Positions 5,145-37,843 of a stretch of 52,310 nt of DNA are shown piece by piece. Numbering within the stretch: position 1 is the stretch's first letter; the number at the start of each line of letters is the position of its first letter. The DNA is from an uncultured Hyphomicrobiales bacterium (GTDB lineage: Bacteria; Pseudomonadota; Alphaproteobacteria; Rhizobiales; Beijerinckiaceae), in NCBI GenBank assembly GCA_903930675.1, contig CAIYZJ010000097.1, positions 1-52,310 of the forward strand, in the 5' to 3' direction. The translations under genes and the position numbers were made by a program. Below the pieces are notes generated by a model. It was not told where the DNA came from. It made no database searches and saw only the letters and a program-made list of their open reading frames with translations.

Positions 5145-6011
5145 ATGGGCTCTTTGGTGATTTTCGGTTTGGGTCAATCCGCCCGCGCCTTTGTAAAGCG
5201 GTTTGGTGCGGATTATTCCTCCATCATCGCCACCGTGCGCGACAGTGCTTCGGCGTCCCCGATGCAGGGTGTCGAGATTATGGATTTCAACGATACGGGG
5301 TTTGATCCGCGCCTGACGCAAGCGGTCGGCGGGGCCGATGTGATCTTGTGCTCTGTCCCGCCCGACGCCGAGGGTGATCCGGTGCTTGAATGGTTCGGAG
5401 ATACGATCCAGGCCGCGACGCAGTTGAAATGGCTCGGCTATCTGTCGACCATCGGCGTTTACGGTGACCATCAAGGCGGATGGGTTGACGAAACAACGCC
5501 CGTGCAAGGGGACAGCGAGCGTTCGCACAGGCGCGTGATGGCCGAACAATTATGGCAGGCTTTGGCGCAAGATGCCGGTCTGCCTTTGCATATTTTCAGA
5601 TTGGCGGGCATTTACGGGCCTGCCCAAAACGCGCTGGTGCAATTGCGGCGGGGCACGGCCAAACGGGTGATCAAACCGGGTCAGGTGTTCAACCGCATCC
5701 ATGTCGATGATATTGCGCAGGTTTTGGCGGCATCGATCCGGCAACCGCGCCCCATGGCAGTTTATAATGTAACCGATGATCACCCCTGCCCGCCGCAGGA
5801 TGTCGTGACCTATGCGGCCGAACTGCTGGGCGTAACGCCTCCCGCCGAAGTGGCGTTCGAGCAGGCGAATTTCACCGAGATGGCGCGCAGTTTCTATTCG
5901 CAGAACAAGCGCGTATCCAACCGCCTGATCCGCGAGGAACTGGGCGTGACACTGCTTTATCCGACCTATCGCGAGGGATTGCAGGCATTGATGGCGGTTC
6001 AGGCGGCGTAA
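5145..6011 (+). CDS. NAD(P)-dependent epimerase/dehydratase-family protein (YeeZ-like)
   Basis: 288 aa atypical short-chain dehydrogenase. A Rossmann nucleotide-binding loop lies at the very N-terminus (LVIFGLGQSARAF), with the strand motif YLSTIGVYGDHQGGWVDE and IFRLAGIYGP further on, and a C-terminal part resembling sugar-nucleotide epimerases (YNVTDDHPCPPQDV). It resembles the YeeZ group, whose substrate is unknown. It starts two bases after the queG stop with GAGG nine bases upstream of the ATG, so it closes a fzlA-queG-epimerase transcription unit. Its last 13 bases overlap the convergent olsB-like gene. Confidence 0.8.
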   Translation: MGSLVIFGLGQSARAFVKRFGADYSSIIATVRDSASASPMQGVEIMDFNDTGFDPRLTQAVGGADVILCSVPPDAEGDPVLEWFGDTIQAATQLKWLGYLSTIGVYGDHQGGWVDETTPVQGDSERSHRRVMAEQLWQALAQDAGLPLHIFRLAGIYGPAQNALVQLRRGTAKRVIKPGQVFNRIHVDDIAQVLAASIRQPRPMAVYNVTDDHPCPPQDVVTYAAELLGVTPPAEVAFEQANFTEMARSFYSQNKRVSNRLIREELGVTLLYPTYREGLQALMAVQAA

Positions 6012-36532: not shown

Positions 36533-37726
36533 TTATTGTTTGGCGGGTGGCGGGGAATCCATGATGCGTTTGAGATATTGGTCAAACATTGGCACCGTAA
36601 ATTCGGTGTCGCCGTGTTGGGGAGAATAGATCATACCCTTTTTGATCAGCTTCGAGCGCGTCGGTGCGACCGTTGACACCTTGTCGTTCATTTGATCTGC
36701 CACATCCCCCGACCGATGCGCTCCACTCCCGAGATCGGCAAGTGCTTTCAAGTAGCGTTTTTCGGATGGTGTACAGCGGTCGAAACGGACCTTGAAGAAG
36801 CTCTCGTCCAGAGACTGGATCGCAGCTTGGGTGGCTTTGTGGATTGTTTCGATGCCAATCGGGCTGGATTGTGCCAGATTCCATGCCTCATAACCCCATT
36901 GCTGGAGAAAATAGGGATAGCCTTGGGTCTGATTGAAGATCTCCTGCAATGCCTCTTGTGTAAATGCGATGCCTTCCAGCCGGGCAGGACCTTGAATGGC
37001 CTCGATCGCTTCGTTGAGCGGAAGCGCACCGACAGAGGGGTAATCAAACAGGCGTTCGGCATAGGACTTCGCATTACCAGCCAAACCGAGAATTTGCGGC
37101 AATCCTGCCCCGATAAGGATGAGAGGCAAGCCAAGCTGGTTGATCCGGTGAATTGACATGATCAATGCGCTGAAATCGGCAGGGCTGAGATATTGCAGTT
37201 CGTCGATGCAGATCAGCAGGGCCGTCTGCGCTTCTTTAGCCGCTTCACCCACGCAAACCAGCAAAGCAGATAAATCTGCTTCCAGATCGCCACTATCAGC
37301 AATTCCCTTTTCGGCACTGATGCTGATCCCCAAATCAACATCGCCGATGCTGAGCTTAAGTCCGTTTGCAAAACTGCGGAGGACATTGAGTGCACGTTTG
37401 GCTTTATGGCCGATATGGGCCATTGCATCGAGAGAAAACAAGACTTGTCGCAGGTGAGAAATCAGCAGTTGCGCAAGCGATTTCCCTTCCGGGGCTTCAA
37501 TCATGATGGTTTTGAAGCCAAGTGTTTTGGCAAGATCTTCGATGGACACCAACAACACGGTTTTACCAACGCCCCGTAAACCGACAATGATCAGGCTTTT
37601 TGCCGGATTGCCACGCTGAATGCGGGAAAGCGCAATTCTGGACTTTTCAAGCAACTGTTCGCGCCCGACCAATTCGGGTGGCGGAGTACCCGCACCGGGA
37701 ACAAATGGATTGGTCACAGGGTCCAT
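36533..37726 (-). CDS. Lone AAA+ ATPase with C-terminal winged helix (NPFxPGAG family, Orc1/Cdc6-like)
   Basis: 397 aa. It opens with NPFVPGAGTPPPELVGRE, a conserved entry motif of a widespread family of uncharacterised ATP-binding proteins. Walker A is GLRGVGKTV (residues 49-57), Walker B LLICIDELQYL (Asp175, Glu176), a sensor-1-like strand PLILIGAGLPQ (201-211), a candidate sensor/arginine region SYAERLFDYP, a lid region (residues ~235-300), and a C-terminal winged-helix-like domain (CTPSEKRYLKALADL … STVAPTRSKLIKKGMIYSP). Biochemical role unknown; the layout resembles Orc1/Cdc6-like and STAND-type ATPases. GC content is visibly lower than in the neighbours, and it sits where truB and rpsO are usually adjacent, so horizontal acquisition is likely. 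ATG 37726 with AAGG nine bases upstream is preferred over a TTG at 37735. Confidence 0.8.
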   Translation of the reverse strand: MDPVTNPFVPGAGTPPPELVGREQLLEKSRIALSRIQRGNPAKSLIIVGLRGVGKTVLLVSIEDLAKTLGFKTIMIEAPEGKSLAQLLISHLRQVLFSLDAMAHIGHKAKRALNVLRSFANGLKLSIGDVDLGISISAEKGIADSGDLEADLSALLVCVGEAAKEAQTALLICIDELQYLSPADFSALIMSIHRINQLGLPLILIGAGLPQILGLAGNAKSYAERLFDYPSVGALPLNEAIEAIQGPARLEGIAFTQEALQEIFNQTQGYPYFLQQWGYEAWNLAQSSPIGIETIHKATQAAIQSLDESFFKVRFDRCTPSEKRYLKALADLGSGAHRSGDVADQMNDKVSTVAPTRSKLIKKGMIYSPQHGDTEFTVPMFDQYLKRIMDSPPPAKQ

Positions 37727-37737
37727 ATCAATCAACC

Positions 37738-37772
37738 TTATCTAAAGTTACCTGATCTTACCCCAAGTTACC
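37738..37772. repeat. Four TTAYC repeats with exact 10-bp period at the AAA+ gene start
   Basis: TTATC at 37738 and TTACC at 37748, 37758 and 37768 on the plus strand (GGTAA on the coding strand). Two of the units extend to AAGTTACC (37745-37752 and 37765-37772). The array covers the AAA+ leader, including its Shine-Dalgarno. Inverted copies (GTAAC at 37830) occur further upstream. Confidence 0.7.
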
Positions 37773-37843
37773 AAAAATTCAATAAATATGGATAACTTTG
37801 CTAAACATACAAATAATCATTGTTTTTCAGTAACTTACATCAA
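37773..37843. promoter_or_regulatory. AT-rich promoter region of the AAA+ gene with a near-consensus DnaA box
   Basis: A ~70-base stretch of roughly three-quarters A+T, unlike the rest of the window. On the minus strand TTATCCATA (37795-37787) differs from the DnaA box TTATCCACA at one position. No promoter can be picked confidently in such AT-rich sequence. Confidence 0.4.

Follow-up and report, generated by a model that had tools for sequence, protein, structure and literature searches.

A phased dyadic repeat upstream of a solitary AAA+/winged-helix ATPase gene is a probable autoregulatory operator

The stretch of DNA analysed here, 52,310 nucleotides from an uncultured Hyphomicrobiales bacterium (GenBank assembly GCA_903930675.1, contig CAIYZJ010000097.1; hereafter the window), contains a short array of regularly spaced TTAYC units beside a gene for an AAA+ ATPase, which raises the question of what this array does and which protein reads it. 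A preliminary description had likened the array, together with a nearby DnaA-box-like site, to a minimal plasmid or phage origin, and had offered as the simpler reading an autoregulatory operator bound by the winged helix of the ATPase. Comparison with homologous loci favours the latter: on balance, the element is probably an operator through which the gene of an AAA+/winged-helix ATPase, solitary and horizontally mobile, regulates itself.

The array comprises four TTAYC units starting at positions 37738, 37748, 37758 and 37768, and their spacing of one helical turn, as originally described, proved exact at 10 bp per step. The units form three overlapping matches to TTAYC-N5-TTAYC (37738, 37748 and 37758), of which a mean of 0.03 is expected in the window, and at least three such matches were obtained in none of 100 shuffles of the window. 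Likewise, when the 130 bp preceding the gene were subjected to 3000 dinucleotide shuffles, none contained a run of three or four GRTAA/TTAYC units in 10-bp steps; the unshuffled region also matches itself at lag 10 (p = 0.003). The array lies 11 bp upstream of the ATPase gene, which is encoded on the minus strand, and the pattern GGTAA-N5-GGTAA is met in this array only throughout the 3.0-Mb genome to which the window belongs.

The TTAYC array constitutes one half, the reverse arm, of a larger dyad (Table 1), in which, in coding orientation, it is faced by three forward half-sites that the preliminary description had not included. This dyad was found by a half-site model, gAGTTTATc, whose training set comprised 84 homologous upstream regions but not that of the window, and no shuffle in sets of 100 and 500 attained the score of its 3+4 arrangement under that model. 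The forward-to-reverse step of 15 bp falls within the peak of 14-16 bp seen among homologues, and the half-sites of the window are variants of the family word, namely AGTTACC, AGTTATCC and CTTAYC. A motif-free inverted-repeat test confined to the window's own upstream region was not significant (p = 0.22).

Table 1. Location of the ATPase gene and of the components of the putative operator; negative numbers give half-site positions in coding orientation.
Feature	Position	Strand	Basis
AAA+ ATPase gene, 397 aa, C-terminal winged helix; ATG at 37726 (MDPVTNPFVPGAG...)	36533..37726	-	ORF, Pfam, family N-terminus, predicted structure
Putative dyadic operator: three forward then four reverse half-sites, 9-10 bp steps; inner forward start to inner reverse start, 15 bp	37734..37808	-	motif model with the window held out, or out of its own fold in cross-validation
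Forward half-site 1 (ATGTTTAGCAA), -82	37798..37808	-	score 6.2
Forward half-site 2 (AAAGTTATCCA), -73	37789..37799	-	score 10.0 of 15.1 possible, best forward site
Forward half-site 3 (ATATTTATTGA), -63, weak	37779..37789	-	score 4.2
Reverse half-site 1 (CAAGTTACCAA), -48	37764..37774	+	TTAYC pattern and motif score 5.1
Reverse half-site 2 (GATCTTACCCC), -38	37754..37764	+	TTAYC pattern and motif score 4.3
Reverse half-site 3 (AAAGTTACCTG), -28	37744..37754	+	TTAYC pattern and motif score 5.6
Reverse half-site 4 (AACCTTATCTA), -18	37734..37744	+	TTAYC pattern and motif score 6.5
Predicted winged-helix coding part (residues 320-376; recognition helix 350-362)	36599..36769	-	predicted structure, mean pLDDT 89.8

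The start of the gene was taken as the ATG at which the conserved N-terminus of the family, MDPVTNPFxPGAG, begins. Judged by its Pfam matches, the encoded protein is a P-loop AAA ATPase, with scores above the gathering thresholds of AAA_16 (48.6 bits vs 32.6) and AAA_22 (38.4 vs 27). The threshold of ATPase_2, which describes archaeal ATPases, is not reached (19.4 vs 33.2), the match to MarR is weak (13.4 bits vs a cut-off of 24.6) and the orc1/cdc6 model NCBIfam TIGR02928 scores 30.3 against a cut-off of 181.3. The predicted structure combines an AAA+ core with a C-terminal winged helix, comprising helices 320-331 and 339-345, the recognition helix and a wing strand at 373-376; the gene product is thus predicted to carry a DNA-binding domain. 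In structural alignments, the closest folds are two archaeal Walker-type ATPases, PABY2304 (2qen; Z 24.3, 320 residues, rmsd 4.7) and SSO1545 (2fna; Z 22.9, 317 residues, rmsd 4.1), from which the protein differs by a sequence identity of only 16-17% and by its failure to reach the ATPase_2 cut-off. Orc proteins and NLR/apoptosome ATPases come next; TnsC and MuB, among others, are resembled as well. On the plasmid records inspected, homologues are labelled just 'ATP-binding protein' or 'ATPase', and a search of the open-access literature, with most subscription papers outside its scope, retrieved no paper on this ATPase family or its operator.

Conservation of the element was assessed in a homologue set for which 100 loci were entered and 87 kept, 85 of them with a clean upstream region. 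The 13 dropped loci were fragments, matches below 35% identity and one duplicate; 18 further fragmentary or remote loci (L139-L148, L156-L163) lie outside the set, and L046 (upstream region too short) and L138 (ambiguous bases) were left out of the upstream analyses. L012 and L037 denote one locus, and its two entries were both counted in the motif-free, control, motif-learning and motif-scoring tests; L037 was removed for cross-validation, and L037 and L049 for the covariation, geometry and promoter tests. The covariation and geometry tests were based on those 52 of the 85 upstream regions that have a scoring dyad and enough sites.

In motif-free comparisons, the 85 upstream regions, which stem from several phyla, match themselves directly with a mean z of 1.64 at lag 9 and 2.22 at lag 10, followed by 0.81-1.16 at lags 18-20 and at most 0.37 at all other lags from 5 to 30, and 47 of them display significant dyad symmetry. 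Two controls remained near background, yet not perfectly flat: dyad symmetry was significant in 8 of 84 segments of 130 bp downstream of the genes (lag-10 mean z 0.06) and in 13 of 85 of the most AT-rich 130-bp segments of each locus (0.09), and the highest control lags, both downstream, had a mean z of 0.61 (lag 9) and 0.68 (lag 12). A repeated, symmetric site therefore lies immediately upstream of the gene and is conserved in homologues. The absence of repeat conservation that would speak against an operator was not encountered, the phased array being kept in several phyla; of the operator originally proposed, the assignment to the ATPase gene is supported by this conservation, and autoregulation of that gene is likely from the comparative sequence evidence.

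The half-site motif was obtained by EM with a fixed number of sites, an unconstrained EM having converged on AT-rich sequence. From five seed words, of which three bear no likeness to the motif, and with the window excluded, the search ended in gAGTTTATc or a shifted form of it; for the seed TTGACA, at 150 sites, the result was a shifted form. Steps between half-sites of the same orientation are mainly 9 bp (35), followed by 10 (13) and 11 (4); forward half-sites are mostly located at -70 to -50 and reverse ones at -40 to -15, and within 60 bp the forward-then-reverse order prevails over the opposite one (108 vs 16 pairs). Since all sequences except that of the window trained the model, its p-values without cross-validation are optimistic. 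Upon cross-validation, dyads were recovered in 65 of 84 upstream regions at p<=0.05 and in 57 at p<=0.01, as opposed to 36 of 84 for a divergent orientation and 17 of 84 for a wrong spacing at p<=0.05; the former figure implies that part of the dyad score reflects half-site density. Among copies that had not been used for training, the model fits 2 of 8 fresh plasmid copies (0 of 3 actinobacterial ones) and all three of the others (L176, L058 and L062). In motif-free tests of these 11 upstream regions, repeats at lag 9 or 10 were significant at p<=0.05 in 8, and the control lags 7, 11 and 13 yielded 0 of 33 tests at that level; dyad symmetry was seen in 6 of the 11. Hence, phasing is broader than the exact half-site word, which fades in remote actinobacterial relatives. 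One genome, G734, harbours two ATPase copies (L120 and L176) with different half-site types, TTTATC/TTTACC as opposed to TTTAGG/TTTATG, and thereby constitutes a natural test of specificity.

As far as promoter predictions go, the putative operator may overlap the promoter of the gene. Sigma-70-like promoters matching at least 10 of 12 positions are present in 11 of 83 homologue upstream regions, where 0.92 are expected, and of 18 promoters predicted at 9 of 12 or better, with the -10 box required to lie between -60 and -6, 17 overlap the dyad. In L051, for instance, TTGATA is part of the inner reverse half-site, and TATAAT is located in the outer one. The window's own upstream region contains no sigma-70-like promoter of at least 9 of 12 positions directed towards the gene. 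This overlap also bears on the notion that the inverted repeats work at the RNA level, as a hairpin or attenuator of the 5' leader, to which the 47 upstream regions with dyad symmetry (of 85) would conform; it is nevertheless very improbable, because 17 of 18 predicted promoters lie over the dyad, the direct repeats of 9-10 bp are left unexplained and the window's own upstream region is devoid of a significant inverted repeat.

Under the operator model, copies of the ATPase would bind half-sites of the gAGTTTATc type (AGTTACC and AGTTATCC in the window) via the C-terminal winged helix. With half-sites placed once per helical turn and facing each other across the dyad, an ATP-dependent oligomer might assemble on one face of the DNA; the 10-bp phasing suggests that neighbouring protomers share one helix face, as would be natural for an AAA+ oligomer. 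Such an oligomer would cover the promoter and block RNA polymerase, so that the gene is turned off once sufficient protein is present. The model builds on a conserved phased dyad just upstream of the start codon, which in the DNA searched is near-exclusive to this gene, on the lack of a conserved partner gene and on the predicted winged helix; we infer from these that the ATPase itself is the reader, that it represses and that its ATP state exerts control.

The reader of the site is most likely the ATPase's own winged helix, to judge from the distribution of the dyad and of the gene. Of 397 genomes, two contain matches to a strict dyad pattern, four in number (three distinct dyads) and each next to the ATPase gene, and the reversed control pattern has one match; the strict pattern misses most of the gene's own dyads, including that of the window. 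In 690 kb from 86 loci, 38 strong dyads were counted, 34 of them directly upstream of the gene and four elsewhere beside it, in a scan that is biased towards upstream regions because its model was trained on upstream sequences. No partner travels with the gene, which makes its own winged helix the simplest reader. Moreover, dyad geometry follows protein relatedness, in that nearest relatives agree in gap class at 0.60 vs 0.23 by permutation, though linked inheritance alone could give the same result. Covariation of half-site and winged helix was absent after removal of ATPase-domain distance (partial r 0.076, p 0.17, n 52, without L010, an incomplete row), and half-site variation agrees a little more closely with that of the ATPase domain (partial r 0.11, p 0.036). 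Since the core of the recognition helix and the TTA core are both conserved and leave little variation to correlate, this null result is weak evidence against the winged helix as reader.

The missing covariation would suit an operator that is read by a host regulator, for example a response regulator of the OmpR/PhoB type, with the ATPase gene as one of its targets. These regulators favour tandem 5-bp half-sites about one turn apart, which the phased half-sites here resemble. We regard this reading as unlikely, given that the double array occurs nowhere else in the window's own genome, that the strict pattern, for all the dyads it overlooks, is confined to the ATPase gene across the 397 genomes and that the two copies of G734 are preceded by different half-sites. 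In addition, half-sites of this type are met again in hosts that belong to several phyla; as family members from these phyla are intermixed in the tree, a host regulator would need to be common to all of them.

The gene itself is distributed patchily, being present in 6 of 41 relatives and in 0 of 4 other members of the genus, as well as in 30 of 397 genomes of the order, 31 of 385 of the class and 17 of 398 of the phylum, counts that take in the window's own genome, fragments and remote matches. Of 72,556 plasmid records, 117 carry a homologue, and others lie on contigs assigned to several phyla. Many of these contigs come from MAGs; single phylum labels, archaeal ones above all, may therefore reflect contamination. 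Hosts from several phyla are intermixed in a tree of 41 proteins. A phage collection yielded one candidate match, on a metagenomic scaffold; none of three candidates on viral contigs is a relative, and E. coli genomes gave no DNA-level match to one plasmid copy. Among 52 loci, the large ORF families overlap the ATPase gene itself, as readings in other frames, and outside it the largest family occupies 6 loci (ABC-transporter-like, by eye) and the next 4, so neither a conserved partner gene nor, with no neighbour family in more than 6 of 52 loci, a type II toxin-antitoxin arrangement was detected.

In the window, which is a chromosomal contig, the gene is situated between truB and rpsO, an interval that in a member of the same genus (G004) is a gap of 173 bp. 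A homologue occupies the truB-rpsO site in a member of the same family, too (G008), with 59% identity to the window copy; since the tree does not resolve the two proteins as sisters, the gene may have entered this site independently in the two genomes. Of eight distinct loci with truB and rpsO both in view, two carry toxin-antitoxin pairs in the gap, which hence seems to take up accessory genes repeatedly and is a plausible site for self-regulated ones. In these two relatives of the window genome, L094 and L096, the pairs are PIN with a MazE-like antitoxin and YefM-YoeB, which hints at a role of the ATPase in addiction or defence.

In one locus (L074), a second, near-identical dyad in the same orientation directly follows the stop codon of the ATPase gene (5906-5959; G294:C3:81011-81064), so that this copy is bracketed by two dyads and lies between two long ORFs. 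Such bracketing, the patchy occurrence across phyla and a fold that resembles TnsC and MuB, among others, would be in keeping with the dyad being mainly the working site of a single-gene mobile element, where a TnsC/MuB-like ATPase would bind an end or a site of recombination, and not mainly an operator. A strong dyad after the stop codon is restricted to 1 of 86 loci, downstream regions show little repeat signal and neither a transposase nor any other conserved partner accompanies the gene, which renders this reading quite unlikely. A similarly small chance is given to a combination of both functions, in which the dyad and the one AAA+ gene would together make up a mobile unit of about 1.3 kb that is complete and needs nothing else. 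The phased half-sites would nucleate a filament or ring of the ATPase that depends on ATP, and would be at once operator and DNA target of an activity such as spread, rival exclusion or recombination. A unit of this kind would explain how the gene reached many phyla with no partner, as well as the copy of G294 that lies between two dyads.

Least probable of all is the minimal replication origin, composed of iterons and a DnaA box beside an initiator-like ATPase, as the preliminary description had considered; direct repeats, AT-rich DNA, the plasmid-borne homologues and a fold and layout (AAA+ plus winged helix) like those of archaeal Orc1/Cdc6 initiators speak for it, and it was rejected for want of DnaA-box, skew or partner-gene support. 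The DnaA-like 9-mer TTATCCATA does exist (minus strand, 37787-37795), one mismatch from TTATCCACA, but four such sites in the window against 4.9 expected are at chance level, 7 of its 9 bases are overlapped by forward half-site 2 of the operator, and the consensus DnaA box TTWTNCACA is absent from the window. Furthermore, the truB-rpsO site is chromosomal, conserved partner genes are missing, GC skew in 2-kb steps (a weak test) displays no clear switch at the array, and the protein departs from Orc1/Cdc6 in scoring far below the cut-off of the sequence model (30 vs 181).

The autoregulatory operator preferred here can be placed among known systems. MalT is a STAND regulator, and 8bob, an entry of the fold list that by its title concerns the maltose system, is probably MalT. 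Mycobacterial IniR (PMC5760070) resembles the ATPase in joining an AAA+ domain, predicted to be SSO1545-like, to a C-terminal DNA-binding domain; it differs in its length (818 residues vs 397), in an extra sensor domain that the ATPase does not have and in an SdiA-like domain in place of the winged helix. In contrast to such STAND regulators, the only target found for the ATPase is its own gene. Autoregulatory promoters of plasmid-partition and toxin-antitoxin genes, as reported for ParA (PMC8465637) and AbiEi (PMC7319586), share with the present case repeated or inverted sites over a gene's own promoter, a gene product as regulator and the accessory nature of the genes. Relative to those systems, the ATPase gene is distinguished by having no conserved antitoxin or ParB partner, by an initiator-like AAA+ ATPase as the candidate DNA-binding protein and by half-sites in phased multi-unit arms. 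For a widespread ATPase family, the operator model names a specific candidate target on DNA and a regulatory circuit that is amenable to experiment; if it holds, the reading of phased multi-unit dyads by an initiator-like AAA+ protein would connect the oligomerisation of initiators and STAND proteins with simple self-control in a mobile gene.

Two minor observations concern the surroundings and the integrity of the gene. On a plasmid of Vibrio sp. HDW18 (L169), a homologue is located among small genes (DUF3709, DUF3024), which we take to be of the kind found in Vibrio integron cassettes; Rfam gave no match at this locus. Split or partial matches to the gene were observed in G017, G410, G399, G689, G505 and G587, as expected for an accessory gene that is often lost or, in some of them, for contig breaks.
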